Shown piece after piece: positions 1 through 18,244 of a DNA stretch of 64,000 nucleotides. The notes under the pieces were generated by a model. That model had not been told where the DNA came from. It searched no databases and saw only the letters and a program-made list of their open reading frames with translations. Location of the stretch: positions 1 through 64,000 of the forward strand of contig CAISET010000027.1 in NCBI GenBank assembly GCA_903884505.1, in the 5' to 3' direction. The translations under genes were made by a program, and so were the position numbers. This DNA comes from an uncultured Microcaldota archaeon (GTDB taxonomy: Archaea; Micrarchaeota; Micrarchaeia; Burarchaeales; Fermentimicrarchaeaceae). Each line of letters begins with the position of its first letter. Within the stretch, counting starts at the first letter, position 1.

Positions 1-339
1 GGAACGGACATCCGCATTCTTGTCCTCCAGGGCCTCAAGCAGCGGCTCAAGTGCCCTTGCGTCTCCTATCTCCCCGAGCACATATGCCGCCCAGGAACGG
101 ACACCTTTATTCTTGTCGCCAAGGGCGTCAATCAGCGGCTCGACAGCCGGCTTGCCTATCTCCCCGAGCGCAAATACCGCAGAATGACAAACCGCCTCAT
201 TCTTGTCTCCCAGCGCCCTAATCAGCGGCCAGACTGCGGGCTTGCCCATCTTTCCGAGCGCCTTTGCCGCCTCCTTGCGGTCCTCATCACTGCCCTTTCG
301 AAGCATTTCTATCAACATCTCGACATTATCCATAGCCAT
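1..339 (-). CDS. HEAT-repeat protein, cut by window edge
   Basis: An open frame of 113 codons runs from an ATG at 339 off the left edge, so the C-terminus is missing. It encodes PBS-lyase-type HEAT repeats of about 31 residues, with recurring units such as VEPLIDALGDKNKGVRSWAA and the helix LGEIGKPAV. The start overlaps the stop of the preceding gene by one base (TGATG), as expected for the last visible member of a polycistronic array. HEAT repeats form protein-binding solenoids; no catalytic motif is visible. Whether it carries the shared C-terminal tail of its paralogues cannot be seen. Confidence 0.8.
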   Translation of the reverse strand, partial: MAMDNVEMLIEMLRKGSDEDRKEAAKALGKMGKPAVWPLIRALGDKNEAVCHSAVFALGEIGKPAVEPLIDALGDKNKGVRSWAAYVLGEIGDARALEPLLEALEDKNADVRS

Positions 340-2210
340 CAGCTCGGAACCCTTACCCTTGGCCTTAAATCTGACGCCATTCCCCTGAACATCCTCTCAA
401 TCGTGATATCCTTCGGCCTTTCCGAGACCTCACGCACCCCGCTGGGCCTCTCCACCTTTGAGCTGATTCTGTCGATTACTTTTCTCATTGTCTCCCTTAC
501 CTCAGGATCCTTGGCTGCGAGCGCGTGGAGCGCCGGCAGGGCATCAACCGCCTTGCCCCCCATGTAGCTGACCGCCACTGCGGCCGAGAGGCGGACATCC
601 GCATCCTCATCTCTGAGCGCCTCGATTAGGAACGGGGTGGCTGAGGCCCCTTTCTCCGCCATCGTGATGAATGTGTGGAATACCTTTCTGCGCAGTTCAG
701 GGTTTCCGGAGTTCGCCGCCTCGATGAGCGCCGGGATGGCCGGCTCCCCGATTCGGGCAAGGGCTTGCTGGGCAGTCCCGCGCACGTCGCCGCTGATGTC
801 TGTGAGGGCCCCTACGAGCGGGGGGATTGCCGCCTCTGCCTTTTCGCCAAACTCGCCAAGAGCCATCACAGCATTGCAACGGGCATTGACATCGCCGCCC
901 TTGAGCACCTTTATCAGGATGGGAACCGCCGGCTCGCCAACCCTGGTCAGAATTGTTGTGCAGGTCGGGCGCATGTCGCTGTTGCTCATCGCACCAATCA
1001 CCGCGGGAACAGCATCCACACCCATCTTCACGATTGCCTCCTTGGCCTTCTCGTTCAGGTCGTGGTATCTCAACCCGAGGTAAAGCAGGTCCTTGACCGC
1101 AGGCGGGCCCATCTTGAGAAGGGCTTCGAAAGCGGCAGGCGAGTCATAGTTCTGGGCCTCAACCATCTTGACGAGCCCGGGGATGGCGATGGCGCCGCTC
1201 TTGCCGAGCATGCCGATTGCCTCGCAGAAGCTGCCCTTGCTGTACATTACCTTGTCGGCCAGCGCCGCATTGAGCGTTTCCGCCAGCCTTTGGAGCATCG
1301 CATCGTCATGGCTGCGGCCTTCATGCCAGCCAGTCCACACAAGCGCGACAGCCGAGATGTAGCGGAGCTCTGCCTCACTTCTCTCCGCGCCCCTGGTCAG
1401 CAGCATCTTCTCAAGGGCTGGCCAGGCATCCTTTGCCTTCGGGCCTATCACCCCGATTGCATGGGCCGCCTCGACACGGACGTCCGGCGCCGGGTCGTTG
1501 TCCAGCACTCTAATCAGCGCAGGAAGCGCAGGGAGCGCCTTCTCCCCCAAGCGCCCGATTGTCTCAATAGCGCGGTAGCGTATTCCATTATCAGTATCGG
1601 CAAGCGCCCTCACAAGCGAAGGGATGGCCTTTGCGCCATTCTTGCTTTCAATTATCTTCTCCATCGCCCTGCGCGCATCGCAGGACACCGCCTCATCGCC
1701 GTGGACGATGTGCCCGAGCAGTTCCCTCACAGTCTTGTACTCGAGCCCGAGGGGCCGTGCGAGCCTGTAGCGCATCAGGTGGGTGCTGAAATGCCATTTG
1801 CGGGACATGTTCCAGGCGTTCATGGCGGGGTTTGTCACCCAGGAACGGATGCTGTCTGCGCCCCTTTTCACCCTCTCCTTGACGGTCGGCACGTAAGGCT
1901 TGTCATCGCGCCTGCTCTCTATTATCCGCTTCAACCTGTCCTGCCTCTCGCTGAGCTCCTTTATGTCCTTCTTCCACTCGAAATGCAATGCTATCCTATT
2001 CAGCATTATGCGGAATGTCGACTTGCCCTCTATGTCGTGCTCCACACGATACTTGTACTGATTCACATTCTTCTCCAATTTCCTGATGCCCTTCTTCCAG
2101 GGCGTTGGCCTGAACTTGCTTTTCACCCGCTCAACGCGGTCAACCACAGCGGCTGCCGTAACGATTAGGTCTAGCAGGTCCTCCTCATTTTCAGGCTTTT
2201 TGTTCCTCAT
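339..2210 (-). CDS. large HEAT-repeat protein (623 aa)
   Basis: This is the largest member of the HEAT array. The first ~150 residues are basic and helix-rich without clear repeats. About 14 HEAT units follow (helix pairs like ALADTDNGIRYRAIETIGRL), to about residue 575. It ends with the tail shared across the cluster, RPSGVREVSERPKDITIERM. The ATG at 2210 overlaps the upstream stop (ATGA), indicating translational coupling. The likely role is a scaffold or adaptor for the MoxR/VWA pair at the head of the operon; this is inferred from context and nothing enzymatic is visible. Confidence 0.8.
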   Translation of the reverse strand: MRNKKPENEEDLLDLIVTAAAVVDRVERVKSKFRPTPWKKGIRKLEKNVNQYKYRVEHDIEGKSTFRIMLNRIALHFEWKKDIKELSERQDRLKRIIESRRDDKPYVPTVKERVKRGADSIRSWVTNPAMNAWNMSRKWHFSTHLMRYRLARPLGLEYKTVRELLGHIVHGDEAVSCDARRAMEKIIESKNGAKAIPSLVRALADTDNGIRYRAIETIGRLGEKALPALPALIRVLDNDPAPDVRVEAAHAIGVIGPKAKDAWPALEKMLLTRGAERSEAELRYISAVALVWTGWHEGRSHDDAMLQRLAETLNAALADKVMYSKGSFCEAIGMLGKSGAIAIPGLVKMVEAQNYDSPAAFEALLKMGPPAVKDLLYLGLRYHDLNEKAKEAIVKMGVDAVPAVIGAMSNSDMRPTCTTILTRVGEPAVPILIKVLKGGDVNARCNAVMALGEFGEKAEAAIPPLVGALTDISGDVRGTAQQALARIGEPAIPALIEAANSGNPELRRKVFHTFITMAEKGASATPFLIEALRDEDADVRLSAAVAVSYMGGKAVDALPALHALAAKDPEVRETMRKVIDRISSKVERPSGVREVSERPKDITIERMFRGMASDLRPRVRVPS

Positions 2211-3001
2211 GCCCTCACCATCTTCGGCTGCCTCACATCCGAGGCCATTCCCCTGAGCATCCTCTCAATCGTGACGTCTTTCGGCCTCTCTGAAACCTCG
2301 CGCACGCCGGAGGGCCTGTACGTTTTGTCAGCGATCTTCTCGATTACTTTCCTCACTTCCTCCTGGTCTCCGGGATGCTTGAGCGCATATTCATGGAGAT
2401 GGGGCAGGATTTGCGCTCCCATCCTTTCGAACGCACTTGACGCCCAGTAACGAATATCCTTGTCCTCATCTCCCAATGCCTTGATAAGCGGCGCGATAGC
2501 CGGCTTGCCCATCTTTGCGAGCGCTTCTACCGCACTGAAAAAAAGCCTCGAATCCCTGCGTTTCTTAGCTCTAATTAGCCCGTCTTTCATGGCTTTAATC
2601 AGCGGCTCGACCGCCCTCGTATCACCTATCTTTCCGAGCGCAGATGCCGCACCGGAAGCGACATAATCATTCTCGTCTCCCAGGGCCTTAATCAGCGGCC
2701 CGACCGCTCTTGCATCGCCTATCTCTCCGAGCGCCTCTGCCGCCTGTTGACGGACATACAGATCCTTGTCTCCCAGGGCATTAATCAGCGGCTCAACTGC
2801 CCTTTCATCACCTATCTTTTCGAGTGCAATTGCCGCCCACTGGCGAAGACCATTATTCCTGTGTCCCAGGAGCTTAATCAGCACCCCAAATGACCTTTCG
2901 TCGCCCAGCTCCCCGAGCGACTCCATTGCCTCTTTCCTTTGAGGGCCAAGGGTTTCGCTCACTCTCCATATCTTCCACCTGACGCGGATTGAGTCGAACA
3001 T
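2207..3001 (-). CDS. HEAT-repeat protein (264 aa)
   Basis: The protein has six to seven PBS-lyase-type HEAT repeats (for example AVEPLINALGDKDLYVRQQA) and ends with the shared tail RPSGVREVSERPKDVTIERM plus a short variable end. A TTG lies two codons upstream at 3007, but the ATG at 3001 sits two bases after the previous stop in the recurring junction TGATTATG, so ATG is preferred. It is a paralogue of its neighbours and probably arose by tandem duplication. Inferred role: protein-protein interaction scaffold. Confidence 0.78.
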   Translation of the reverse strand: MFDSIRVRWKIWRVSETLGPQRKEAMESLGELGDERSFGVLIKLLGHRNNGLRQWAAIALEKIGDERAVEPLINALGDKDLYVRQQAAEALGEIGDARAVGPLIKALGDENDYVASGAASALGKIGDTRAVEPLIKAMKDGLIRAKKRRDSRLFFSAVEALAKMGKPAIAPLIKALGDEDKDIRYWASSAFERMGAQILPHLHEYALKHPGDQEEVRKVIEKIADKTYRPSGVREVSERPKDVTIERMLRGMASDVRQPKMVRA

Positions 3002-3003
3002 AA

Positions 3004-3789
3004 TCAAAACCTCACAGCCGCCCTCTGCTGCCTCACATCTGACGCCATCCGCCTGAACATCCTCTCCATCCCGAGATCCTCAGGCTTCTTTGACACCTTG
3101 CGCACCCCGCTCGGCCTCTTCACATCAGACGCAATCTCCCTGACCGCGTCTTTCACATCCGCCCTCAGCTCAGGATTCTTGAATGCGGCTTCGTGGAGGG
3201 CCGGCAAAGCATCAACAGCCTTTCCCTTCATCTGGCCCAGCAGATAGACAATCTTGAAGCGTGTATTCGCGTCCGCATGCCCGAGCGCCTCAATCAGCGG
3301 CCGCACCGCCCTCTCATCGCCAATCTCCCCCAATACCAGCGCCGCCTTTGCGCGGACATTCGCGTTCTCATCCCCGAGGAGCCTAATCGCTGGTTCAATC
3401 GCAGGCGCGCCAGTGCCTTTCCCGATATTTACCAGCACATCTAGTGCCTTCATGCGGACATCCGGGTTTTTATTTCCGAGAGCCTCAGCCAGCTTTCCAG
3501 CCGCGGGCCTGCCAATCTCCTCCAGCGCCTGCCCTGCATGGTAGGAGATGGCGAAATTCTCATCGCCAAGCGCCTTGACAAGCGGCCCGACCGCCTTTGC
3601 CCCAATCTTCACCAAAGCCAAAATGGCATTTCCGCGGACAGCCGCGTCATGATCCCCGAGCGCCCTGATGAGCGACCCGATAGTAGAGGGGTCCTTCAGG
3701 TCCACGAGCCTCCTGGCAGCCTGCACCCGCTCGTCGCGACTGCCAGTATGCAGCTGCGCAATCCAGTACGCAATGCCTGGGTCGTTCAT
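3004..3789 (-). CDS. HEAT-repeat protein (261 aa)
   Basis: About seven HEAT repeats cover most of the protein (for example GSLIRALGDHDAAVRGNAIL). It carries a divergent copy of the cluster tail, RPSGVRKVSKKPEDLGMERM. The start was chosen at the ATG at 3789, in the junction TGATTATG that also occurs at other gene borders here. It lies inside a minus-strand operon with its paralogues on both sides. No catalytic residues are apparent. Confidence 0.78.
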   Translation of the reverse strand: MNDPGIAYWIAQLHTGSRDERVQAARRLVDLKDPSTIGSLIRALGDHDAAVRGNAILALVKIGAKAVGPLVKALGDENFAISYHAGQALEEIGRPAAGKLAEALGNKNPDVRMKALDVLVNIGKGTGAPAIEPAIRLLGDENANVRAKAALVLGEIGDERAVRPLIEALGHADANTRFKIVYLLGQMKGKAVDALPALHEAAFKNPELRADVKDAVREIASDVKRPSGVRKVSKKPEDLGMERMFRRMASDVRQQRAAVRF

Positions 3790-3791
3790 AA

Positions 3792-4955
3792 TCAAAACCT
3801 CGCAATCTTCGGCTGCCTCACATCTGACGCCATTCCCCTGAACATCCTCTCGATTCCCACTTCCTTCGGCCTCTCTGAGACCTCACGGACTCCGCTCGGC
3901 CTCTTCGCGTTCTTCGATATGTTCGCAATCGCATCCTGCAGCTCTTTCCTGAGCTCCGGGCGCTCGAACGCCTTCTTGTGGAGCGCAGGCAGGACTTCCG
4001 CGGGAACGTTTTTTATGTCGCCAAGCGCCCCTGCTGCTTCCTTGCGGGCTTCCTCATCAGGGTCGTCAAGGTTCCTTATGAGCAGGGAAACGGCGTTCCC
4101 AGCGCACGCCTTCCCCATCCTGCCCATGTACGCAAAGGCATTTGCCGCGCCTGCGCGGACCGGCGCATCCTCATGGCTCAGCGCATCGGTCAGCGAAGGG
4201 ACCGCCTTTTCCGCAAGCTTGGCAAGCGAATCGGCCGCATGAATCCAGGTGTTCCTGCTCGGGCCCTTGAGCGCCTCAATCAGGGCAGGTATGGCGGAAT
4301 CCGCCAGCCTGTCCGCGTTCCCCAGCGCATCGGCAGCCCAGGTGCGGATTGCCCCGTCGCGGTCGTGCTTCAGAAGCCTAATCATCATCGGCACCAGAGC
4401 CTGCTCGTCGTATTTCACGAGCGGCGCCAGAATCCCGGCCATCTCATAGCGCATGGGGTTGCTCTCGTCCTCCAGCGCCTTGATGAGCGGCTTGACCGCA
4501 GGCTTGCCAGTCTTCCCCAATGCTTTCGCTGCGCCTTTGCGGACATTTTCGTTCTCATCATTAAGTGCCTTGATGAGCGGCTCAACCGCGGGCTCGCCAA
4601 TCTTCCCCAATGCCTCCTCTGCACGTGAGCGGACAGTCTCGTCTTTATCCCCGAGCAGCTTCATCAGCGGCTCAACCGCCCTCGCATACCTGGTGTCCCC
4701 CAATGCCTCTGTTACATACATGCGGACGCCCGCGTCTTCATCCCCTACCATCTTAGCCAGCTGCTCAACCGCGCCCTTACCCCCGATTTCCCCCAATGCA
4801 TATGCCATCTTTGCGCGGACTAGCGTTTCTTCATCAAATTTAGGCACAATTATGAGGACCGGGTGCATCTCCCCAAGCTTTCTGGCCGCCTGCTCCCGCT
4901 CTTCAGGGCTGCCGTTCTGCAGCTTCCTTATCCACCACCACTTGTGAATGCCCAT
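3792..4955 (-). CDS. HEAT-repeat protein (387 aa)
   Basis: Roughly ten HEAT repeats are visible, including AVEPLIKALNDENENVRKGA, followed by the conserved tail RPSGVREVSERPKEVGIERM. A TTG at 4961 could also initiate, but the ATG at 4955 directly after the upstream stop fits the pattern of the array. Coupling to its neighbours suggests the set is made at a fixed ratio with the MoxR and VWA proteins. Function is unknown beyond a predicted alpha-solenoid scaffold. Confidence 0.78.
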   Translation of the reverse strand: MGIHKWWWIRKLQNGSPEEREQAARKLGEMHPVLIIVPKFDEETLVRAKMAYALGEIGGKGAVEQLAKMVGDEDAGVRMYVTEALGDTRYARAVEPLMKLLGDKDETVRSRAEEALGKIGEPAVEPLIKALNDENENVRKGAAKALGKTGKPAVKPLIKALEDESNPMRYEMAGILAPLVKYDEQALVPMMIRLLKHDRDGAIRTWAADALGNADRLADSAIPALIEALKGPSRNTWIHAADSLAKLAEKAVPSLTDALSHEDAPVRAGAANAFAYMGRMGKACAGNAVSLLIRNLDDPDEEARKEAAGALGDIKNVPAEVLPALHKKAFERPELRKELQDAIANISKNAKRPSGVREVSERPKEVGIERMFRGMASDVRQPKIARF

Positions 4956-4957
4956 GA

Positions 4958-5635
4958 TCAAAACCCCGTAACCCTCTCTTTCTGCGGTTTGGCATCCAGC
5001 GCCCTTGACCTAATCATCCCTGAAATGTCTTCAGGCCTCTCAGAGACCTGGCGCGTCCCGCTCGGCCTCTTGGCATCCGAGGCAATCTCGCTGATTATCC
5101 TCTTCAGGTCCTCACGGCATTCGGGGTGCTTGAATGCGAGCTCGTGGAGCTGCGGCAGGATTCGCGCCCCCATCTCCACGAGCGCACATACCACGTAACC
5201 GTAAGCCTGCGATTCCGTGTCTTTCAGGGCCTCAACCAGCGGCTCGACTGCAGGCTTGCCTATCTTTTTGAGCGCCCATGCGGCATTGGAACGGACATCC
5301 TTATCCTCGTCTTCCAGAAGCTTGATAAGAGGCTCGACTGCCCTTGCGTCGCCCATCTCTCCGAGCGCCTGGGTCGCAGAATGGCGAACATTCTCATCCT
5401 TGCCTCCGAGGGCCTTGATCAGCGGCTCGATAGCCGGCCCGCCTATCTCTGCGAGTGCGTCTGCCGCATGAAAACGGAGATGCGCATCCTTGTCCCCCAG
5501 GGCTTTGACCAGGGGCTTGACCGCCCTTTCGTCTCCCATGTGCCCGAGCTCATCTGCCGCTGCCGCGCGCTCATCAAAGTTGCCCTTCCGGCGGCCCGTC
5601 CGAAGCTTTTTTATGAGCCTTTCGACCTCGTCCAT
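4958..5635 (-). CDS. HEAT-repeat protein (225 aa)
   Basis: This is the first HEAT gene downstream of the VWA gene. It has five to six HEAT units (for example AVEPLIKLLEDEDKDVRSNA) and the most divergent version of the cluster tail, beginning RPSGTRQVSERPEDISGMIR. The ATG at 5635 lies two bases after the VWA stop codon, in the same TGATTATG junction seen between the HEAT paralogues. This places the HEAT array in one transcription unit with the VWA and MoxR genes. Confidence 0.78.
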   Translation of the reverse strand: MDEVERLIKKLRTGRRKGNFDERAAAADELGHMGDERAVKPLVKALGDKDAHLRFHAADALAEIGGPAIEPLIKALGGKDENVRHSATQALGEMGDARAVEPLIKLLEDEDKDVRSNAAWALKKIGKPAVEPLVEALKDTESQAYGYVVCALVEMGARILPQLHELAFKHPECREDLKRIISEIASDAKRPSGTRQVSERPEDISGMIRSRALDAKPQKERVTGF

Positions 5636-5637
5636 AA

Positions 5638-8262
5638 TCACAGCCTCGTGACCTGCCTGTAGAACTTCGGAAGTATCTCAGGGAGCTCGGAGACATCGGA
5701 GATGGCAACTACCCTGCCCTCCCCGTAAATCTTTGAGAGCTCGTAGGCCTCGTGCTCCCTCATCCTGACTGCTATGCAGAAGACAACCACGCCCTTCGCG
5801 ATGGCCTCCTCAACCGCGTGCCTCGTGTCCTCCATGGCGTAGGTGCCGCCGTAGTGCGTCCCGTCATCGGAAGGGAGCCCGTCCGCGAGGAGGATGAGGA
5901 TTTTCTTCTTCTCGCTCCTCTCAAGGAGCTTCTCGGTGGCGTGCCTTATCGCAGCCCCGTCGCGATTCGCGTGGTTGCTCTCAACCGTCCTGTCGCCCAT
6001 GGGCTCCTGCCAGTCCTTTATGACGTAGAAGTGCGTGTTGTCCTTCCCGTCGCTGTTGAACGCCCAGACCGCGAACGGGTCCCCCACGGTCTCGACTGCA
6101 GAAGAAAGCACGCGCATTGACTGCAGCTCGGTCTTAAGCACCTGGCCGGAGGTGCTCCCTGAGCAGTCAACGAGCATTGCGGTTGCGACGCTGCGCTTGT
6201 TGCGCTTCAGCTTCACGTAGAACAGGGGCTCGGGGTTCAGGCCTGCCTTCTTCTTCACAAGGTAATCGACGTAAAGCCGCGGGTCTATCTCCTCCCCCTC
6301 GTCCGCCCCGCGCACCTTTGTCTTCGCATCTGGCTTCAGCCTCTGGAACATGGCGATTACTTCGTGCATTACCGGGTGGGACGGCTGGGGCGTGCCCTTC
6401 GTCGCACCTTCCTCTATGACCGTCGTGTATCCGTAGGTCGGGGCGTTTTCAGGGTCGTAGATGAACGCCTGCTTCTTGCAGTCCCATTCAGGGTAGTAGT
6501 ATTTCATCTTCTCCTCAGGCGGCTTCTCCCCTTTCGAGCCCCCTGGGTCGCCATCATCGCCGGCAGGCTTCTTTTCCTTCCCTTCCCCGAACTTCGCCTT
6601 CACTTCTATGGCCGGCTCGCCGGGCCTCGCCTTCTTCAGCTTCTTCTTGAACAGGGCCGAGATATCCTCCTCTATGAGGGGGGTCGGGAAGGTCTTCACG
6701 TAGCGCTTGTAGTCCGGGTACTTCTGCTTGAACTTCAGGACAACGTCGATGGTCGCGTTGAAGGCGTTGGTGCCGTCAGCCCCGGTGTTCCCCCGTTCCG
6801 CAATCTTCACGAGCTCGAGCGCCTCCGGAATCTGGATGAGCGTGGCGTGCCTCTCGAGCAGTTTCTGCAACTCACGCTCCTGGCGCTCGAGCTTTGCAAG
6901 CGCACCTGTGTCGTAGGGCTGCCCGGCCTCCTTCTGGCCGCGGAGCGGGGAAAGCCTCTTCTGGGCGTCGGCGAGCCTTTCCTTCAGCCTCTCCGGGTCA
7001 AGCGGGACGATTGCGAGCTGGAGGAATGCCTCCAGGATGTCACCGGCGTCTCCAGGGACGCGAGGCACCTCCCTGAACTGGAGGTGCTTCTCCTTGTTTT
7101 CCGAGTATTCCACCCGCACTCCCGGGTTCTTCCCAATCGTGATGTCGTCAATCCTGCGGTCCTCTATGATGTTGTGGATTTTGTGCGCAAGCTCTTTGTC
7201 CTCGCCGAAAAGGCCGAAGAGGTCGTCCGCGGTCTCGAACCTCCTGGGCCTCCCTGTCCTGAATGCCTTTGCCTCGCCCTCCTCATCTGTGAGCGGCTCC
7301 CCCTTGAGCGTCTCAATCTCCACATAGGCGTCGGTCTGCTTCACCATCGCAGGGTTCCTCAGCCTGTACCCGAGCTTCTCAAGCTCGGCCTGGAAAACGC
7401 TGATTTCGAAGCTTCCCTCGATGATGTGCGCAGCCTCGTGGTAGGAGCCCAGGGTGTAGTCGCGCCTGTTCTCCTCCTTGGACGGGAACCTGTTGACTAT
7501 TGTCGGAACTTCGACGCTCCTCCCGTCCGTGGCGAACTTGCTGCCGGCCTTTATGCCGACCGAGCCGTCATGCGAGAGGATCATGACCAGGGCGTCGAGG
7601 AAGCCTGTGATTTCGGCTGCGGTCTGCACCTGGCTCTTCTTCGCCCTTGCGAACCACTCCTTTGCCTCGGGCGTCTTGCCCTCGAAGATGAGCTTTGCGC
7701 TTTCCGGGACGGTCCGGGCGAGAAGGAGGAGCTCGGTGAAGTCCACGGGGTTGTTCCCGAGCTTGAAATAGACCATGTCCATGAACATGAAGAAGGTCAT
7801 GCTGTCCCCCTGGCACAGGGTGGCGTAATCCCCGAGCTTCCAGGCTTCGTACCTCGCGAGCTTGAGCAGCTCAGGGCCGTAATAGCTGTCATGCACCAGG
7901 CAGCGGTTGGCCGTGTCGTTTATGAGGTGCACGGCGTTGTTCACCGCCTTGGTCATGTCAATTAGCTTGTCACGGGTATACCCGGCGTCAATCCAGGCGT
8001 CCGCCTTCTCAATCGCCCTGTTCCTAAGAATCCAGTTTATGGAGTCGAGGTCGAGCGCATCCTTGAGGAAGGCGCGCGCCTTCTCCTCCCCGTACTTCGT
8101 GGTGAGCTCCCCGAGCTTTTTCTCAACAAGGGGCGCGCAGGCCCAGCCCGAGTAGCCGTCAATCTTCTCGCTGGCCGCATCAATCTTCTTCGCCTTCTCA
8201 AGCAGCTCCTGGCCCCAGGTAGGCTTGGTGACAACAGGGCTCGGGGTCAGGTGCTTGGCCAT
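5638..8262 (-). CDS. NorD/CobT-like VWA-domain protein with HExxH motif
   Basis: The 874-residue soluble protein has a C-terminal von Willebrand A domain with a MIDAS signature (D699, S701, S703 in LVDCSGSTSGQ). The mid region has features of the NorD/CobT family: HEAAH at 275-279, an EDRRID motif near 367, and YYPEWD near 590. Residues 550-585 are charged and low complexity. Family members work with MoxR AAA+ ATPases to insert metals or remodel target complexes. The MoxR gene lies immediately upstream and HEAT proteins downstream, so a MoxR-VWA-HEAT complex is inferred. Whether the HExxH is a working metal site is unknown. Confidence 0.82.
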   Translation of the reverse strand: MAKHLTPSPVVTKPTWGQELLEKAKKIDAASEKIDGYSGWACAPLVEKKLGELTTKYGEEKARAFLKDALDLDSINWILRNRAIEKADAWIDAGYTRDKLIDMTKAVNNAVHLINDTANRCLVHDSYYGPELLKLARYEAWKLGDYATLCQGDSMTFFMFMDMVYFKLGNNPVDFTELLLLARTVPESAKLIFEGKTPEAKEWFARAKKSQVQTAAEITGFLDALVMILSHDGSVGIKAGSKFATDGRSVEVPTIVNRFPSKEENRRDYTLGSYHEAAHIIEGSFEISVFQAELEKLGYRLRNPAMVKQTDAYVEIETLKGEPLTDEEGEAKAFRTGRPRRFETADDLFGLFGEDKELAHKIHNIIEDRRIDDITIGKNPGVRVEYSENKEKHLQFREVPRVPGDAGDILEAFLQLAIVPLDPERLKERLADAQKRLSPLRGQKEAGQPYDTGALAKLERQERELQKLLERHATLIQIPEALELVKIAERGNTGADGTNAFNATIDVVLKFKQKYPDYKRYVKTFPTPLIEEDISALFKKKLKKARPGEPAIEVKAKFGEGKEKKPAGDDGDPGGSKGEKPPEEKMKYYYPEWDCKKQAFIYDPENAPTYGYTTVIEEGATKGTPQPSHPVMHEVIAMFQRLKPDAKTKVRGADEGEEIDPRLYVDYLVKKKAGLNPEPLFYVKLKRNKRSVATAMLVDCSGSTSGQVLKTELQSMRVLSSAVETVGDPFAVWAFNSDGKDNTHFYVIKDWQEPMGDRTVESNHANRDGAAIRHATEKLLERSEKKKILILLADGLPSDDGTHYGGTYAMEDTRHAVEEAIAKGVVVFCIAVRMREHEAYELSKIYGEGRVVAISDVSELPEILPKFYRQVTRL

Positions 8263-8280
8263 GGGCTCACCGCCGGAAGC

Positions 8281-9264
8281 CTAAGGCATCGGAATCTTGT
8301 TGTAGACCACTTCTGCGGCTGCCCTTGCCTTCTGGATGGCATCCTTTGCGAAGTCGCTCATGACCTGGTAGACCATCCCCGTCATGACAGCGACCTTGGC
8401 GTCTATGCCTGCGACTATCTGCTGCATGACGTTGAGTATGAGGCCGTCGCCGGGCACCTCCTTGAAGGGCAGGTTGACGTTGCGGGCGGCCCCGGTGTCC
8501 GCGTCCTTCTCCTTCACCATGCCGCCCATGTTGTAGGCCTTCCTCAGCTCGTCTGTCCCGTCCCAGAGGCCTTCGGCTATCTTCCTCTTCTGAAGCTCCA
8601 CCTTCGGCTCCTTCGCCTTCTCCAGCCTCTCGAGAATCATCTCCACGCAGCGCTCCTTTGGCAAGTGGTCGAACTCCATCTCAACGCCCATGCGCCTTGT
8701 GAGCGCGGGCGAGGTCTCGACAGTGGTATAAAGGCTGCCCGTGTTCATGGCGAACATCAGCATTACGTCCTTCGGAATCTCGAATGTCATCCCGGAAACC
8801 TCATCCTTCAGCACGCGGTAGTCCAGCGCGGAATACAGGGATGCAGTCACCCTCTTGTCGGCAAGGTTCACGTCGTCGATAAGCACGACCGCCTTTCCTG
8901 CGGCAGCGGCCTCGCAGACTGGTCCCCAGTCAACCCTGAACTCGTCGCCCGCAGGCACTAGCTTTCCGAAGAAGGAGGCAGTGGTGGTATCCTCGTTGCA
9001 GACCACCCTATAGAAGCCTGCGCCCTTCTCCTTCGCGAACCACATGGCAAAGGTGGTCTTCCCGCAGCCCGGAGGGCCGCGCATGAGCATTGCCTTCTGG
9101 TTCCCCCAGCAGAACTCCGCGAGCTTCAGCTCGCTCTCCCCGTTGATGCTGTGCGGATGGTACTTCCCCGGGTTAGGGGCTATCCGGTTTGCAAGAATTG
9201 TCTCCTTCTCGGGAACTACTACGCCACTTGGCGCGCGCTTGTATCCATCAATGGTTTTCGCCAC
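8281..9264 (-). CDS. MoxR-type AAA+ ATPase
   Basis: This AAA+ ATPase has Walker A GPPGCGKT at residues 63-70 and Walker B VVLIDD near 127-131, followed by an arginine-rich sensor region. Its pairing with a VWA gene 18 bases downstream is typical of the MoxR/NorQ class, which couples ATP hydrolysis to remodelling of a partner. The GTG at 9264 was chosen because GGTGGT precedes it at Shine-Dalgarno distance and a TATA box lies at 9293-9300. An in-frame ATG at 9312 would lie upstream of that promoter. If 9312 is used, 16 residues are added. Confidence 0.85.
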   Translation of the reverse strand: MAKTIDGYKRAPSGVVVPEKETILANRIAPNPGKYHPHSINGESELKLAEFCWGNQKAMLMRGPPGCGKTTFAMWFAKEKGAGFYRVVCNEDTTTASFFGKLVPAGDEFRVDWGPVCEAAAAGKAVVLIDDVNLADKRVTASLYSALDYRVLKDEVSGMTFEIPKDVMLMFAMNTGSLYTTVETSPALTRRMGVEMEFDHLPKERCVEMILERLEKAKEPKVELQKRKIAEGLWDGTDELRKAYNMGGMVKEKDADTGAARNVNLPFKEVPGDGLILNVMQQIVAGIDAKVAVMTGMVYQVMSDFAKDAIQKARAAAEVVYNKIPMP

Positions 9265-9292
9265 TAGACCACCGGCAATATCGCTCGATTCC

Positions 9293-9300
9293 CCTATATA
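9293..9300 (-). promoter_or_regulatory. TATA box of the MoxR-VWA-HEAT operon
   Basis: On the minus strand this reads CTTATATAG-like sequence (TATATAGG core), about 30 nt upstream of the GTG at 9264. It matches the archaeal TATA consensus and supports initiation inside the longer open frame, so the leader is short and carries a GGTGGT ribosome-binding site. Confidence 0.5.
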
Positions 9301-9377
9301 AGGATTTCGCATTTTGGGTAAAAGGCGGAAACGTTTGTCTGGTTTTTCCGTAAAATTAGAACGATTGTTTCAGAGGG

Positions 9378-11915
9378 TTATACCTTTATGAAGTGGAAGT
9401 AGGCGAGCTTGCAGAGCTCCGCGACCGCGAAGTAGCCCAGGAGGATTGCGCCAATCATCCCAAGGAACCCCAGGTCGGGCTGCACGAACTGGAAGATGTA
9501 TGCGAACGGGCTATAAACCAGCAAGACAACCGCCGCGATGGTAAGCAGCGAAGAGCCGAGAAGCAGGTTGCTCGGCCGGCTCATGAAGAAGGGCTTCCTG
9601 CTTCTTATCGCGAACGTCACGAGTATCTCGGAGAGCACCGACTCTATGAACCAGCCCGTCCTGAACAGCTCCGGGCCAGCCTTCACGACATAGGCGAGGA
9701 ACATCATGGTGATGAAGTCGAAGACCGTGCTGACAAGGCCGAAGAATACCATGAATTTCGTTATGCCGGAGATGCTCCACTTCCCCGGCTTCCTAAGGTC
9801 CTCGAGGTCGACCCGGTCCGTTGAGATTGTAGTCAGGGGAAAGTCGGAAACGAAGTTGTTCAGCAAAATCTGAGAGGGAAGGAGGGGTATGAACGCCATG
9901 AAAGGCGAGACGAAGGCGAGCGTGAGCATGTTGCCGAAATTGGCGCTCACCGTGTTGCGCATGTATTTCACGGTGTTGGTGAATGTCTTCCTCCCTTCGA
10001 CAATGCCATCCGCAATCACATGGAGCCCGTGCCTGAGCAGGATGATGTCCGCGCTCTCCTTCGCTATGTCCGCCCCACTATCCACCGAGATGCCGGCGTC
10101 CGCGGAGTGGAGCGATGGGGCGTCATTCACCCCGTCGCCTATGAATCCCACCACGTGCCCGTTCTCCTTGAGCGCCGAGATTATGTCGAGTTTTTGCCCG
10201 GGAGTCATGCGTGCGAAAACGTTTGCCTGCTCGACAATCTTCCGCAGGCCCGCCCTGTCGAGCCCTGCGAGCTCCGAGCCCGTCACAACCCTTCCGCCCT
10301 TCAGCTCCATCCCCACGGCCGTGCAGATTGCGGCAGTCACACGCGGCTCGTCGCCGGACAGTATCTTCATCTCCACGCCGAGCAGCTTTAGGGTGTGGAA
10401 CGCGGCGGCCGCGGTTTTCCTCGGCGGGTCCGAGAACATGAGGAAGCCGAGGAATGTCAGGCCTGTTTCATCGGCTTTCGAGTACTCCGCTTTCGGCTTC
10501 GGCTTCTTAACTGCCACCGCGAGCACGCGAAGCCCCTGCTCGGACATCACTTCATATCGTCTCATCAGCCAGGTGACGTGCTTGTCAACTTTCTCCTCCC
10601 TGCCCTCGCTCATGATTTTGGTGCAGCGCGGTATGACCGATTCGGGAGACCCCTTCGTGACGAAGATGAGCTCCCCGCCCCGCTTCCTGGAGACGACGCT
10701 CATCACCCTGCGCTCGTAGTCGAATGCGACCTCATCCACGATGGAATAGGCCGCGACCTTTCTCGCGAGCTCGGCACGTTTCTTCGTGTGCTCCCATATG
10801 GCCGCGTCCATGGCCATGCCAGCATACTTATGCTTCTTCCCTATCGCAATCGGGCTGGCGAGCATCGCGTGGAACAGGACGCTGTCGTCCTCTTTGCCGT
10901 CGGAGTTCTCGTGCCCCTTGAGCGTGATGGCATTCTCGGTCAGCGTCCCGGTCTTGTCCGTGCAGAGGACATCCACGTTCCCGAGGTCCTCTATGGCGTC
11001 AAGCCGCTTCACGATGACCTTCTTGCTGGCGAGCATCAGCGCGCCATTTGAGAGCGATATCGTGATTATGGCCGGCAGAAGCTCGGGGGTTATGCCGACC
11101 GCGATTGCGAGGGCGAAGAGTAGCGAGAGCAGGATGTCCTTCCCCAGCAGGGCATTGGCCGCGAAGATGAAGACGGTCATCACGACAACGACGCCCAGCA
11201 GCATTTCGCTGAACAGCTTCACGTTGCGCTCGAAATCCGTCTGCGGCGGCTTCTCCTTGAGATATGCGGCAGTCCTGCCAAGCTCGGTCGCCTTCCCGGT
11301 CGCGATGACAACGCCCGTGCCCGCTCCGGATGCAACGCTCGTGCCCATGAACGCCACGCACGCCATCTCCTGCGGGGACGGCGACGCTTTCTTCACGGGC
11401 TCCAGGTTCTTCTCCGCAGGGGCCGATTCGCCGGTCAGGAGCGACTGGTTGATGAAGAGCTCATGCACGCTGATGAGGCGCACGTCCGCAGGCACCAGGT
11501 TGCCGGTCTCGAAGAAGATGATGTCGCCCGGAACGAGCTCGCGCGCATCCACTTCGTCCCGCTCGCCGTCGCGCAGCACCGTGGCCTTGAGCACTATATA
11601 GCGCGCCAGCTTCTCGAGCGCCTTCTCGCTCCTGTACTCCTGCACGAAGCTGAGCAGCGAGTTTATCACAACTATGCCGACTATGACCGCGGCCTCGGTG
11701 AATTCGCCGATGCTTCCCGCGATTACCGATGCCAGGACAAGGATGAGCACGAGCGGGCTGGAGAACTGCCTCACGAGAATGCCGAGGGCCGTCCTTCTTT
11801 TCTTTGTCTCCACTTCGTTCCTGCCGGATTTCTTGAGCCTCGCCTGCGCCTCGTGGCTGCCCAGGCCCTTCGATTCGGATGAGCCGAGCTCGGCAAGCAC
11901 TTTCTCCGCGGGCAT
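9378..11915 (-). CDS. mgtA: MgtA-like P3B P-type ATPase (Mg2+ transporter)
   Basis: The protein is an 845-residue P-type ATPase. It has the phosphorylation motif DKTGTLT at D320, TGES at about 161-164 in the actuator domain, the M4 motif ITPELLPA near 275, and a GDGVND hinge. The C-terminal membrane block (SANFGNMLTLAFVS, then LLNNFVSDFPL and a TDRVD segment) resembles bacterial MgtA/MgtB rather than Ca2+ or heavy-metal pumps, so Mg2+ import is likely. The frame extends antisense into the RuBisCO gene, so that part is rejected. ATG 11915 is preceded by GAGG; GTG 11933 is an alternative. The gene is divergent from RuBisCO. Confidence 0.88.
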   Translation of the reverse strand: MPAEKVLAELGSSESKGLGSHEAQARLKKSGRNEVETKKRRTALGILVRQFSSPLVLILVLASVIAGSIGEFTEAAVIVGIVVINSLLSFVQEYRSEKALEKLARYIVLKATVLRDGERDEVDARELVPGDIIFFETGNLVPADVRLISVHELFINQSLLTGESAPAEKNLEPVKKASPSPQEMACVAFMGTSVASGAGTGVVIATGKATELGRTAAYLKEKPPQTDFERNVKLFSEMLLGVVVVMTVFIFAANALLGKDILLSLLFALAIAVGITPELLPAIITISLSNGALMLASKKVIVKRLDAIEDLGNVDVLCTDKTGTLTENAITLKGHENSDGKEDDSVLFHAMLASPIAIGKKHKYAGMAMDAAIWEHTKKRAELARKVAAYSIVDEVAFDYERRVMSVVSRKRGGELIFVTKGSPESVIPRCTKIMSEGREEKVDKHVTWLMRRYEVMSEQGLRVLAVAVKKPKPKAEYSKADETGLTFLGFLMFSDPPRKTAAAAFHTLKLLGVEMKILSGDEPRVTAAICTAVGMELKGGRVVTGSELAGLDRAGLRKIVEQANVFARMTPGQKLDIISALKENGHVVGFIGDGVNDAPSLHSADAGISVDSGADIAKESADIILLRHGLHVIADGIVEGRKTFTNTVKYMRNTVSANFGNMLTLAFVSPFMAFIPLLPSQILLNNFVSDFPLTTISTDRVDLEDLRKPGKWSISGITKFMVFFGLVSTVFDFITMMFLAYVVKAGPELFRTGWFIESVLSEILVTFAIRSRKPFFMSRPSNLLLGSSLLTIAAVVLLVYSPFAYIFQFVQPDLGFLGMIGAILLGYFAVAELCKLAYFHFIKV

Positions 11916-11951
11916 TGCCTCGTAGGAAGCCACGGTTAGCACTGGGCGCCG

Positions 11952-11992
11952 TTGTTTTAATAAAGTTTGGGCAAAATCGCTTTGGTGATTGA
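11952..11992. promoter_or_regulatory. divergent promoter, mgtA / RuBisCO
   Basis: The AT-rich stretch TTTTAATAAAG at about 11955-11965 can serve as a TATA element in both directions. On the plus strand it lies about 30 nt upstream of the RuBisCO ATG, which also has GGTGAT just ahead of it. On the minus strand it reads CTTTATTAAAA and lies about 25-30 nt upstream of the GTG at 11933. No operator is recognisable. Confidence 0.45.
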
Positions 11993-13255
11993 ATGAGCCG
12001 CGATGTTTACAAGGGCTACCTGGCCCTCGGAAAAGCGCCTGACCCGGACAGCCACGTCCTCGCATCCTTCTACTTCGAGGCAGAGGACGCGGACAATGCC
12101 GCGCAGGCGATTGCGGCGGAATCCTCCGTGGGGACCTGGACTGAACTGAAGACGATGAAACCGCAAATCCGCAATTCCCTTGCCGCAAAAGTCTATTCAC
12201 TCGATAAGAAGAAAGGGCTTGTGAAGATTGCTTACCCCATCGACCTCTTCGAGCCATCGAACATCCCGCAGCTCCTCTCCGACATCGCGGGAAATATTTT
12301 CGGGATGAGGGAATTGGAGAACCTGAGATTGCTCGACTTTGAACTGCCCAAGGCGTATGTCAAGTCCTTCAAGGGCCCTGCCTTCGGGCTTGAGGGCGTC
12401 AGGAAGATGATTGGCACGCAGAAGAGCAGGCGGCCGCACTGGGGAACGATAGTCAAGCCGAAAGTCGGGCTGAGCCCTTCCGAGAACGCGAAGGTCGCAT
12501 ACGAGGCATGGGTTGGCGGCGTGGATTTCGTAAAGGATGACGAGAATCTTTCCAACCAGAAATTCTGCCCATTCGAAAAACGGGTCGCGCTTACTCTTGA
12601 GGCAAAGGATAAGGTGGAATCTGAAACCGGAGAAAAAAAGATTTACGCGCCAAATATCACTGCAGAAACTAATGAGATGCTCAGGCGTGCGGAATTCGTA
12701 AAGGCGCACGGCGGCAACTGCATAATGGTAGATATTATCACGGCAGGCTTTGCCTCCCTGCAGACAATCCGCAACGCAAACTTCGGCATGCCCATCCATG
12801 CGCACAGGGCGATGTACGCCGCATTTGCTAGAAACCCGAAGCACGGCATCGCTTTTGCGCCCCTTGCGAAGCTTGCGAGGCTCGCAGGCGTGGACCAGCT
12901 ACACACCGGCGCGATTGTCGGGAAGATGGAGGGCGCGAAAAAGGATGTTCTGGAGATTAACGATTGGCTGAGGGGGGAATGGTTCGGCCTGAAGCCCGTA
13001 TTCCCGGTCGCATCGGGGGGAATAGACCCGCTGCGGATTCCGAGGCTGCTTGAAATTGCCGGAACCGAGCTCGTAATCAACGCGGGCGGAGGAATCCACG
13101 GCCACCCGCAGGGCACGAGGGCTGGCGCGAAGGCGCTGAGGCAATCGTATGATGCATGGAAGAAAGGGGCAAGCCTGGAGGAATACGCGAAAACCCATAA
13201 GGAGCTTGCCGCTGCGTTGGGGAAATGGGGCGAACGAAAGCTGGAGAGTATTTAA
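11993..13255 (+). CDS. rbcL: form III-type RuBisCO large subunit
   Basis: This 420-residue ribulose-bisphosphate carboxylase carries the catalytic set: E42 and T48 region (AAESSVGTWT), N101, K155 in VKPKVG, the carbamylated K181 with D183 and E184 in VKDDEN, H271, H304, loop-6 K311 in VGKMEG, S341 and the glycine run G365-367. This argues for an active carboxylase rather than a form IV-like protein. Archaeal form III enzymes usually act in AMP/nucleoside ribose salvage, feeding 3-phosphoglycerate to glycolytic enzymes (pgk and gap occur further on). AMP phosphorylase and ribose-1,5-bisphosphate isomerase are not in the window. Y275 replaces the usual His of the HRAMH motif. Confidence 0.92.
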   Translation: MSRDVYKGYLALGKAPDPDSHVLASFYFEAEDADNAAQAIAAESSVGTWTELKTMKPQIRNSLAAKVYSLDKKKGLVKIAYPIDLFEPSNIPQLLSDIAGNIFGMRELENLRLLDFELPKAYVKSFKGPAFGLEGVRKMIGTQKSRRPHWGTIVKPKVGLSPSENAKVAYEAWVGGVDFVKDDENLSNQKFCPFEKRVALTLEAKDKVESETGEKKIYAPNITAETNEMLRRAEFVKAHGGNCIMVDIITAGFASLQTIRNANFGMPIHAHRAMYAAFARNPKHGIAFAPLAKLARLAGVDQLHTGAIVGKMEGAKKDVLEINDWLRGEWFGLKPVFPVASGGIDPLRIPRLLEIAGTELVINAGGGIHGHPQGTRAGAKALRQSYDAWKKGASLEEYAKTHKELAAALGKWGERKLESI

Positions 13256-13290
13256 CCTTTCCGCACCATAACGGTAGGAAGGTGAATCTT

Positions 13291-14403
13291 ATGGATGAGC
13301 ATCACGAAGAGCATACTCCTAGCGCCGGGCATAATGAGCACCACGCGGAAGCGCACACCCACGAGGAGCACGAGGCGCATGCATCTCACCACGGTGAGCA
13401 CACCCATGAAGAGCATGAGGCGCACGCACTTCACCATGGCGAGCACGAGGCGCACGCATCTCATCCGGAGGGACACCCCCACGGTGCGCCCTCGCACGGC
13501 GCGCGAAAGTCGAACGAGCAGTACTTCTGGTTTGCAATCGCGGCCGCGGTGATAATAATCGCCGTGTCGGCCTTCTTCGCAACAGGAGTGATAAACAAGG
13601 CGCTCGCGGACCTGGGAAATGCAACGGCAACCGGCTCGCCAACGCCCACCACTATCCCAACAAGCACGCCGGCTCCCCCGACTCCTACCCCGACGCCGCT
13701 CGTGAATGTAACGATTACCGAGATTCGTGATGCGAACTGCACTAACTGCTTCAACGTCAGCATAGTCACCGCATCCCTGCTGCGCTCGGGCGCGCAACTC
13801 GGGATGAATGTTACCTGGATAAGGAGGGTCGACATTAACTCGACCGAGGGCAGTGCAATGCTCACTGCTTACAACATAACGAAGGTGCCCACAATCCTCA
13901 TCTCAAAGGAGGCGCAGGAAACGGCGCTGATGGAAGTATGGAACGAGTCGGGGACCATTGAAAGCGATGGCACGCTCGTGCTGCGCGAGGTCTATCCTCC
14001 GTACATAGACCTGCAGACCGGGCAGCTCAAGGGGCTGGTGAACGTCACTTTCATCACGGCCCCGAACTGCACGCAATGCTACGACCCCGCAATCCACAAG
14101 GCCATAATCCTCCAGAGGTTCAGCATCGTTGTGGCCAACGAGCAGAACGTCACATACACGTCTCCGGAGGGCATTGCGCTCATGGGGAAGTATAACATAA
14201 CTGCCGTCCCGACAGTCCTTATCTCGCCTGAAATGGGCCTTTACCCGGGAATGGAGTCGCTGTGGGTAGATGGCCTGGTCGGCTCGAAGGAGAGCGACGG
14301 CTGGTATGTGTTCAGGAACATGGCGGCCATGGGCAACGTGACCTTCTTCAACGTAACATCGAACAGCACGGTCACGCTGACGATGAACAATACCGGCGGC
14401 TAG
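13291..14403 (+). CDS. His-rich, membrane-anchored double thioredoxin-like protein
   Basis: The protein is 370 residues. Residues 1 to about 75 are extremely His/Glu-rich with near-tandem EEHEAHASHHGEH-type units and look metal-binding. A single transmembrane helix follows (about 80-105), then a Thr/Pro linker, then two exposed domains each with a CxxC motif (NCTNC and NCTQC) and a later cis-Pro-like KVPT/AVPT segment, as in thioredoxin folds. A disulfide or metal-handling role at the cell surface is inferred. The start is ATG 13291, which has GGTGA ten bases upstream. The next gene is also a thioredoxin-fold protein. Confidence 0.75.
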   Translation: MDEHHEEHTPSAGHNEHHAEAHTHEEHEAHASHHGEHTHEEHEAHALHHGEHEAHASHPEGHPHGAPSHGARKSNEQYFWFAIAAAVIIIAVSAFFATGVINKALADLGNATATGSPTPTTIPTSTPAPPTPTPTPLVNVTITEIRDANCTNCFNVSIVTASLLRSGAQLGMNVTWIRRVDINSTEGSAMLTAYNITKVPTILISKEAQETALMEVWNESGTIESDGTLVLREVYPPYIDLQTGQLKGLVNVTFITAPNCTQCYDPAIHKAIILQRFSIVVANEQNVTYTSPEGIALMGKYNITAVPTVLISPEMGLYPGMESLWVDGLVGSKESDGWYVFRNMAAMGNVTFFNVTSNSTVTLTMNNTGG

Positions 14404-14474
14404 GGCAAGGAGTTTATTGGCGCCGGCGAAGCGGGCGGAACGCGCTTCGGACAGGTGCCTAGGGAAAGGATTCG

Positions 14475-15077
14475 ATGGACGACCGCGTGAAGAACTTAGC
14501 CATAGGCGCTGTGCTCGTTGGTATCGCATTCGCCATCTATTATTTTTTTATCGCCGTTCCCCCAGGCCCGCCCGTGCAGATAAATCTCGATGGCAGGCAC
14601 TGGAAAGGCGGGGAGAACGCATCGGTCATAATCGTGGAATTCTCGGACTTCCAGTGCCCTTATTGCAGCAGGGCAGCGGGAATCGCGGATGAGGTTGCTG
14701 CCGAATTCGATGGCGATGTGAGGCTGTACTACCTGCACTTCCCATTCCATCAGAACTCGGAGAAGGCCGCCGAGGCTGCGGAATGCGCGGGCGACCAGGG
14801 GAAGTTCTGGGAGATGCATGACATAATGTTCAGCAACCAGGGGGCGCTTGACCAGGAGCACCTAAAGAGCTATGCGAGCGGGCTGGGCCTGAACATGACG
14901 CAGTTCAACTCCTGCCTTGGGAGCGGGGAGAAGGGGGCAGTCATTGATGCTGATTTTGACAAGGGACGGGCGGCGGGCGTCACAGGAACTCCGACATTCT
15001 TCGTGAACGGTAGGAAGCTGAGGAGCTATGATGCGGACAGCCTCAGGACCGCGATAAGAAGCGAGCTTGGGCGGTGA
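14475..15077 (+). CDS. membrane-anchored DsbA-family oxidoreductase
   Basis: The 200-residue protein has an N-terminal signal anchor (about residues 8-27) and a DsbA-like domain with active site CPYC at 61-64 and the cis-proline motif GTPTFFVNG near 170-178. A helical insertion lies between them, as in DsbA/DSBA thioredoxins. It likely catalyses disulfide exchange outside the membrane, consistent with the many Cys-rich secreted proteins in the window. It follows the double-thioredoxin gene; a TATA-like GTTTATTG at about 14411 suggests its own promoter. Confidence 0.87.
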   Translation: MDDRVKNLAIGAVLVGIAFAIYYFFIAVPPGPPVQINLDGRHWKGGENASVIIVEFSDFQCPYCSRAAGIADEVAAEFDGDVRLYYLHFPFHQNSEKAAEAAECAGDQGKFWEMHDIMFSNQGALDQEHLKSYASGLGLNMTQFNSCLGSGEKGAVIDADFDKGRAAGVTGTPTFFVNGRKLRSYDADSLRTAIRSELGR

Positions 15078-15186
15078 GCCGAGAGGAATGCTGGGAACCT
15101 CAGGGCAGCGATAAATGGCGGAACTGGGGCGATGATTTCGTGACAAACATATTTAAACGGCGGAAGCGCCAACAATTGCGATAGGG

Positions 15187-15400
15187 ATGGTGAACAACGG
15201 GTGTTTACGAACCGGGTGTTTCCAAACGTTCCGTCAGTCCAGGCCATGAATCTCTTTCTCAAAGCGGAAGGCCGCGAAAGCTGAATTCAAATGACGTAGC
15301 CGAGCTGCGCGCACTTCGCGCCGAAGGAATTCCGATAAGGCAGCTGGCCGACGGGTTCAACGTTTCAAGGATGTGCGTTTGGAGGTGTTTGAATGACTGA
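15187..15400 (+). pseudogene. resolvase-type HTH relic without in-frame start
   Basis: Codons ending at TGA 15398-15400 encode a Hin/resolvase-like helix-turn-helix preceded by a GRPRK motif (LRALRAEGIPIRQLADGF, then VSRMCVWRCL). No ATG, GTG or TTG opens this frame. The only well-placed start, ATG 15187 with GGGATGG ahead of it and a TATATTTAAA-like box at about 15149-15158, is in another frame and stops at 15249. A frameshift is therefore implied. The end overlaps the next gene by eight bases. It may be a decayed recombinase C-terminus or a small regulator with an error. Confidence 0.4.
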
Positions 15401-15911
15401 GGTAGTTTTCGGCCTGATGCCATTGGGCGCGCCAATAAGCCGCGACATGGAGCGGCTTGAGAGAAGGCTCTGGGATGCAGGAGTGTGGCACAGGTTCATC
15501 GAAAAGCCGGAGACAGTGCATACTGCGGATGCAGCGAAAGCCAGCGGCCTTCCCATCGAGGCCTTTACGAAAAACCTCGTCTGGAACAGCGAGCGCGGGC
15601 CGGTCCTGCTAATCGTGCGCGGGGACATGAGCGTTGATTTGGAGGCGGCAGCAAAGGCGGCTGGCGTGAAGAAGCTGCTGAAGGTCCCGTTCAGCGATGC
15701 GGTCAGGATAAGCGGATACCTTCCCGGGGCGACGCCGTCCGTGTTCCATGCGAGCCCGATGATAGTTGTTGTTGATGAAGAAGTGGCGAAGCTGGAAACG
15801 CTGATATGTGGAGGCGGCGACAGGGAGCACCTGCTGGAGCTCCGCAGCGCGGATGTGATTAGACTTAATAATGCGGCGGTAGAGAAGATAGCGAAGAGGG
15901 ATTTGAAATGA
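15393..15911 (+). CDS. YbaK/ProX-family aminoacyl-tRNA deacylase
   Basis: This 172-residue protein matches the YbaK/EbsC/ProXp editing fold. Supporting features are the conserved lysine in EAFTKNLVW, the segment VRGDMSVDLEAAAKAAG, and SGYLPGATPSVF matching the family's glycine-rich loop. Members hydrolyse mischarged aminoacyl-tRNA in trans. The stop overlaps the ATG of threonyl-tRNA synthetase by four bases, so the two are probably co-translated. A role in clearing mischarged tRNA, perhaps connected to threonine or alanine, is inferred; the substrate cannot be read from sequence. Confidence 0.85.
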   Translation: MTEVVFGLMPLGAPISRDMERLERRLWDAGVWHRFIEKPETVHTADAAKASGLPIEAFTKNLVWNSERGPVLLIVRGDMSVDLEAAAKAAGVKKLLKVPFSDAVRISGYLPGATPSVFHASPMIVVVDEEVAKLETLICGGGDREHLLELRSADVIRLNNAAVEKIAKRDLK

Positions 15912-18173: not shown

Positions 18174-18174
18174 T

Positions 18175-18243
18175 ATGATGTACGACGCAATATTCCTTGA
18201 CTGTGACAGCGTGATTGCGCACGGCGACCACAGGAGGCTTTGA
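18175..18243 (+). pseudogene. truncated duplicate of the HAD gene start
   Basis: A 22-codon frame beginning ATGATG encodes MMYDAIFLDCDSVIAHGDHR then stops. It repeats the first 13 residues of the following HAD phosphatase (MYDAFFFDCDGVIT), including the DxD nucleophile motif. The DNA also matches (tacgacgca... and gactgtga... are shared). It is either a duplication relic or a short leader peptide; it is too short to be an enzyme. Confidence 0.55.
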
Positions 18244-18244
18244 C

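Follow-up and report, generated by a model that had tools for sequence, protein, structure and literature searches.

The 64,000-nucleotide stretch of DNA analysed here (the window), from an uncultured Micrarchaeota archaeon (GCA_903884505.1, contig CAISET010000027.1), begins with a minus-strand cluster, locus A, in which the genes for a MoxR-type AAA+ ATPase and a NorD/CobT-like VWA protein adjoin a series of genes for HEAT-repeat proteins. All HEAT proteins of one locus end in a common C-terminal tail of about 35-50 residues, and this tail is locus-specific. With a probability of roughly one in two, the arrangement represents a NorQD- or midasin-like motor served by interchangeable binders that would dock through the tail. 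An earlier interpretation of the window made from its letters alone (the sequence-only reading) had guessed at interchangeable adaptors; the guess is supported by the locus-specific tail, in genome G045 also on ankyrin proteins. This tail, the main evidence for adaptors, had not been seen in that reading.

Locus-specific tails

Statements about whole genomes rest on profile searches. In the genome of the window, 1.5 Mb in size, HEAT_2 matches number 101, nearly all of them within three MoxR-VWA loci (A, B and C). The tail consensus is 'RPSGVREVSERPKD..IERM.RGMASDVR' at locus A and 'KPHDFGCRETE.L..P.IP.EF.RL.L.DVPKAK' at locus C, and distinct tails of their own occur in genomes G050, G098, G111, G033, G093, G103 and G045. 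Tail alignments score on average 56 above shuffled within loci and 1.9 between them. Clear similarity between loci is confined to A-B (22) and G111-G093 (15), which are the pairs with the most similar VWA proteins (45 and 50%), and tail similarity follows VWA similarity overall (Mantel r 0.79, p 0.0002). Because HEAT bodies resemble one another about as much between loci A, B and C as within each, it is the tail, not the body, that distinguishes the HEAT sets.

A profile built from the nine A tails and the B tail retrieves from its own genome exactly those ten genes, and a C-tail profile exactly the 18 HEAT genes of locus C; neither gives a further match there at E values up to 1. All 12 good matches of the G050 tail profile lie inside its locus; in G103 the neighbouring HEAT gene carries the tail, which recurs on other contigs in at least one gene and probably in two. 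AlphaFold predicts a confident solenoid for HEAT protein 3 of locus A to about residue 223, followed by a tail of low confidence. Tails A and C each contain a conserved acidic residue, which would suit a ligand of the metal ion-dependent adhesion site (MIDAS) of the VWA protein.

Scaffold INDEPENDENCE is found in G045, where 30 genes on ten contigs (14 HEAT, 15 ankyrin and one without a Pfam match) end in one tail. The G045 profile combined the tail of a HEAT protein encoded beside MoxR-VWA with that of a HEAT protein from another contig; open reading frames were read under and beside the profile matches, and weak single matches were kept only if the frame ended in the motif, one (L127) being discarded. 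Since HEAT and ankyrin genes on ten contigs carry it, the G045 tail is independent of both scaffold and operon, and the occurrence of a common tail on two unrelated folds makes whole-gene duplication a strained account of its origin.

Binder-type repeat surfaces

At loci A, B and C, 113 repeats share a 31-residue register in which positions 6, 7, 10 and 14 are hypervariable (4.05, 3.75, 3.58 and 2.86 bits) and positions 5, 8, 12 and 16 reach at most 1.2 bits. The variable positions correspond to alphaRep positions 18, 19, 22 and 26 (PMC3754942), a mapping made by motif and not by structure superposition; alphaRep binders are also the closest solved structures to the HEAT proteins. This residue pattern shows a surface of binder type, which is not by itself proof of selection for diversity.

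Organization of locus A

Window position 1 is base 1 of the contig (C27), and the features of locus A within the window are as follows.

8281..9312, minus strand: MoxR-type AAA+ ATPase, 343 residues (AAA_5, E 1.7e-18; profile matches to NorQ, CbbQ and midasin)
9055..9078, minus strand: Walker A motif GPPGCGKT of MoxR, read from the translation
5638..8262, minus strand: HExxH and VWA protein, NorD/CobT-like, 874 residues (VWA 8e-10, CobT_C 1e-8)
7426..7440, minus strand: HEAAH motif, VWA protein residues 275-279 (both histidines and the E invariant across ten relatives)
7147..7164, minus strand: EDRRID motif, VWA protein residues 367-372 (D at residue two invariant, last D nearly so, in ten relatives)
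6154..6168, minus strand: MIDAS motif DCSGS, VWA protein residues 699-703 (D, S and S invariant in ten relatives)
4958..5641, minus strand: HEAT protein 1, 227 residues (HEAT_2 7e-33; tail 4970-5071, profile match 7e-17)
3792..4961, minus strand: HEAT protein 2, 389 residues (HEAT_2 9e-52; tail 3795-3905, profile match 1e-20)
3004..3795, minus strand: HEAT protein 3, 263 residues (HEAT_2 3e-31; tail 3007-3120, profile match 1e-19)
2207..3007, minus strand: HEAT protein 4, 266 residues (HEAT_2 1e-35; tail 2213-2320, profile match 6e-21)
339..2210, minus strand: HEAT protein 5, 623 residues (HEAT_2 3e-44; tail 348-452, profile match 5e-19)
1..339, minus strand: HEAT protein 6, 5' part (remainder and tail on contig C30; 191 residues in all)

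The six HEAT genes of the window match HEAT_2 of Pfam at E values of about 1e-28 to 1e-51. The MoxR-VWA junction is 18 nucleotides long, the genes from VWA to HEAT 5 overlap by 4 nucleotides at each of their five junctions (VWA-H1, H1-H2, H2-H3, H3-H4 and H4-H5), and the H5-H6 overlap is 1 nucleotide, a spacing compatible with one translationally coupled unit. The sequence-only reading had described a minus-strand unit of MoxR, a VWA protein with HEAAH and EDRR motifs, and at least six HEAT genes running past the window edge. The unit is confirmed and proves larger than claimed: when the sequence to the left of the window was retrieved, the end of contig C30 was found to be the same 55 nucleotides as the start of C27, and joining the two completes HEAT gene 6 and adds HEAT genes of 778, 250 and 303 residues, so that locus A comprises MoxR, VWA and nine HEAT genes. 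The join is based on an exact overlap of the sort left by a break in an assembly graph, and not on reads.

At the end of locus A, contig C30 encodes a XerA-like tyrosine recombinase of 143 residues (L028 6937-7368). It matches the catalytic part of the profile only, and the position of the usual catalytic tyrosine appears to be missing, so that the protein may be inactive.

Loci B and C and their relatives

Locus B, on contig C25 joined to C7 through a 41-nucleotide overlap, encodes MoxR, VWA and a single giant HEAT protein longer than 1,100 residues. Locus C (contig C22) has the order MoxR, 11 HEAT genes, VWA and 7 HEAT genes, 18 HEAT genes in all; HEAT genes thus lie between MoxR and VWA in locus C, whereas the two are adjacent in loci A and B. 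The VWA proteins of A and B are 45% identical, those of A and C 29-32%.

Several side observations concern these loci. The giant HEAT gene of locus B is interrupted by a TAA near the contig join (L018 start / L027 start), which may be an assembly error, the gene being possibly split. The MoxR proteins of loci A (window 8281-9312) and B (L018 4857-5828) carry 'LIDD(V/F)N' instead of the usual Walker B DE..N. Locus C is flanked by 101-residue paralogues, 68% identical to each other (L020 1368-1673, minus strand, and 18129-18434, plus strand), which are probably winged-helix regulators, and one of its HEAT genes (L020 6253-7404) resembles a fusion of two HEAT proteins, with a start-like segment inside it and a single tail, and looks like a sign of active rearrangement.

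A search with the VWA profile in a set of 301 genomes found relatives in 10 other genomes. The phylum is Candidatus Micrarchaeota, judging by four genomes with relatives that bear this name and by class-level and phylum-level searches that both span 301 genomes. HEAT-type genes adjoin MoxR-VWA, or VWA at a contig end, in G050, G098, G111, G093, G103 and G045, and an ankyrin gene adjoins VWA in G123. That MoxR and VWA form a remodelling pair whose apparent partners are an enlarged HEAT set, as the sequence-only reading had it, therefore finds support in loci A, B and C and in six further genomes of Micrarchaeota. That reading would have been refuted by HEAT genes not adjoining MoxR/VWA in any relative, a condition contradicted by loci B and C and by the same six genomes. 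The distribution is patchy, since the VWA profile did not find the protein in the 7 other genomes of the window's own family. A scan of named genomes with the VWA proteins of A, B and C gave no match, and one with a divergent VWA group gave four named Micrarchaeota contigs. Scans of viral contigs gave no match, and plasmid and phage searches gave partial matches only, over the VWA region and of NorD/CobT type where annotated. As a separate observation, a CobT-like VWA protein with HEGAH and NIIEDGRIE motifs is encoded at L066 (G125:C46) 3094-5460, on a contig that is phage- or mobile-element-like, its primase, single-stranded DNA-binding protein (SSB) and transposase-like genes having been judged by eye.

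The VWA protein

The C-terminal VWA domain, with an intact MIDAS motif DxSxS (DCSGS), has a NorD-like fold: it matches NorD by profile (1e-49) and by Foldseek (6e-17), and midasin complexes of MIDAS and ubiquitin-like (UBL) domains are among the next Foldseek matches. In the N-terminal region HExxH and N..ED.R.D are invariant or nearly so, and both are kept in three divergent members as well. This region belongs to no Pfam family, and apart from a weak CobT match NCBIfam gave no family informative on the VWA protein. Outside the VWA domain, an AlphaFold model of the full protein built from an alignment of five sequences was of poor quality, and no fold is therefore claimed for the HExxH region, in which a peptidase role would be no more than possible.

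Proposed mechanism and alternatives

In the mechanism proposed, each locus would encode one ATP-driven remodelling machine together with a set of exchangeable adaptors that bind targets. In this machine a MoxR AAA+ ring would work with a NorD-like VWA protein containing the HExxH region as well; the adaptors would be repeat-protein binders, alphaRep-like HEAT proteins here and both HEAT and ankyrin proteins in a relative. The repeats would bind different targets, and the C-terminal tail that all adaptors share would dock onto the cognate VWA/MoxR. This tail, because it is unlike the tails of distantly related machines, could work as a bar-code assigning adaptors to one motor. The motor would then pull or restructure the adaptor-target complex, as NorQD does, or as midasin does with UBL-tagged Ytm1/Rsa4, and the target might be released, unfolded or, if the HExxH region is active, cleaved. 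A general bar-code logic in Micrarchaeota, with machine-specific tails on HEAT or ankyrin scaffolds, operonic or scattered, forming a modular system that remodels or destroys targets, is offered as a tentative extension, somewhat short of probable.

Several observations weigh against tail-docked adaptors. Co-divergence of tail and VWA also follows common ancestry; variability at the binder-type positions is general to the whole HEAT subfamily; and a codon test for diversifying selection between repeats had few recent pairs to compare. Genome G117 has a MoxR-VWA pair without recognisable HEAT neighbours. Conversely, G033 has a HEAT array with its own common tail (...HWxLTAKQLMAMEGRLK):

L088 (G033:C11) 6501-16100, both strands: twelve HEAT genes around a 554-residue protein without a Pfam match

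No VWA protein of this family was found in the G033 genome and no MoxR-VWA near the array, so that either another machine serves these tails or the tails have another role. Separately, several HEAT proteins with a common '...FRRR' end are encoded at L089 (G048:C22) 4155-10870, and the G048 genome likewise lacks a VWA protein of the family.

A biological-conflict (immune) system of the MoxR-vWA kind, in which HEAT and ankyrin proteins sense invaders and MoxR-VWA(-HExxH) transduces the signal or executes the response, has the same architecture as the adaptor machine and adds a purpose to it. Bacterial MoxR-vWA ternary conflict systems likewise have repeat domains and can be present as several paralogues in one genome (PMC7159879), sensors diversified by diversity-generating retroelements (DGRs) accompany MoxR in some conflict systems (PMC10907252), and the patchy distribution and variable repeat surfaces would fit. 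Such a purpose is nonetheless unlikely: no VMAP, STAND, peptidase-effector or nuclease family was recognized by Pfam among the locus A proteins, the genes other than MoxR and VWA giving HEAT-type repeats only; PADLOC had no match to the VWA protein and elsewhere only weak, general AAA or HEAT matches; and a mobile or viral context was not found except for the degenerate recombinase.

The tail might instead be a signal for translocation or localisation, the HEAT and ankyrin proteins being exported to a host cell or to the envelope with MoxR-VWA as export chaperone. Many Micrarchaeota are thought to be host-dependent, C-terminal signals on ankyrin proteins are typical of symbiont effectors, and the tail is scaffold-independent. 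Three tails in one genome, each with its own MoxR-VWA, suit motor-specific docking better than a common route of export, however, and the loci showed no secretion gene, which leaves export quite unlikely.

It is more doubtful still that MoxR-VWA assembles the tailed repeat proteins into a large scaffold, with the tails serving assembly or oligomerisation and the HEAT proteins being the product, not adaptors. The placing of the HEAT genes and the pair in one coupled unit agrees with this, and the tailed G033 array without MoxR-VWA can be read in the same way, but sets of 1 to 18 subunits on differing scaffolds (HEAT, ankyrin) do not suggest a fixed complex.

The HEAT genes of a locus are paralogues and the arrays clearly grow by duplication, and shared tails could thus be merely inherited through recent tandem duplication, with no role in docking. 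This is improbable: the bodies of A, B and C are alike within and between loci, yet the tails of A and C are unrelated, one tail is common to ankyrin and HEAT proteins, and tails are conserved while repeats vary.

The metal-insertion role suggested by the sequence-only reading is not supported, no metalloenzyme client having been seen in the loci examined. A RuBisCO gene 2.7 kb away (window 11993-13255) invites comparison with CbbQO, a MoxR-VWA pair, but a CbbQO-type RuBisCO activase is highly implausible and was rejected, because the gene is on the opposite strand, lies behind a P-type ATPase and has no counterpart at B, C or the relatives' loci in the stretches read. The RuBisCO gene is itself adjoined by a gene for a histidine-rich protein with two CxxC motifs (window 13225-14403), perhaps metal-binding or redox-active.

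MoxR-VWA motors are widespread, and how one motor reaches its targets is poorly understood. The tail-docked adaptor reading offers a testable answer, a short tag linking many variable binders to one motor, for which the three natural tag-motor sets in one genome provide built-in specificity controls. If true, it would be nature's equivalent of engineered binder-adaptor systems, and a design new among the DPANN archaea. A limited literature search found no paper joining Micrarchaeota with HEAT repeats, which is not proof of novelty; three papers mention both DPANN and MoxR, and the one examined for these terms deals with bacterial conflict systems.

Comparison with known systems

The HEAT proteins have the same 31-residue repeat and the same variable positions as alphaRep and other HEAT_PBS-type repeats (PMC3754942), with the difference that alphaRep is artificial, whereas the Micrarchaeota proteins are natural and end in a locus-specific tail. 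CobS-CobT cobaltochelatase resembles the machine in that a CobT_C-type VWA protein adjoins an AAA+ ATPase, but the VWA protein scores 23.5 bits against the 759-bit equivalog cut-off of CobT, and CobN was not seen at the locus. The VMAP/MoxR-vWA ternary conflict systems (PMC7159879) also have repeat domains around a MoxR-vWA core, and one genome can likewise contain several paralogous systems; here the systems are archaeal, and the repeats are in separate tailed proteins, not fused to the vWA protein. As for effector domains fused to the vWA protein, the HExxH region could be a peptidase, although it is N-terminal and has no Pfam family.

Chaperone pairs of the NorQD, CbbQO and RavA-ViaA kind share with these loci a MoxR-type ATPase encoded together with a VWA protein whose C-terminal domain has an intact MIDAS. 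The likeness to NorQD lies in the adjacency of MoxR and the VWA protein and in the match of the latter to NorD by both profile and fold; in NorQD a finger of the VWA protein is inserted into the ring, and the MIDAS, though dispensable for binding NorQ, is required to activate the target (PMC9976466, PMC13036017). Unlike NorQD, the loci read here had no gene for nitric oxide reductase (NOR) or another metalloenzyme, the VWA protein has an N-terminal HExxH region outside the NorD match, and a tailed HEAT repertoire stands in place of one client. Midasin/Rea1 also combines an AAA motor with a MIDAS domain, and both MoxR and VWA match it; its MIDAS reads a tag on adaptor proteins, and midasin pulls UBL-tagged Ytm1 and Rsa4 (PMC6624252), which makes it the nearest analogue of the proposed mechanism. 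The subunits here are separate and small, the tag would be a short C-terminal tail instead of a folded UBL, there would be many adaptors per motor, and a ribosome role is not known. The comparison, drawn by analogy, concerns working mode and not membership. Together, these comparisons identify a motor of known kind, in which the new element is the tail-coded, scaffold-independent repertoire.

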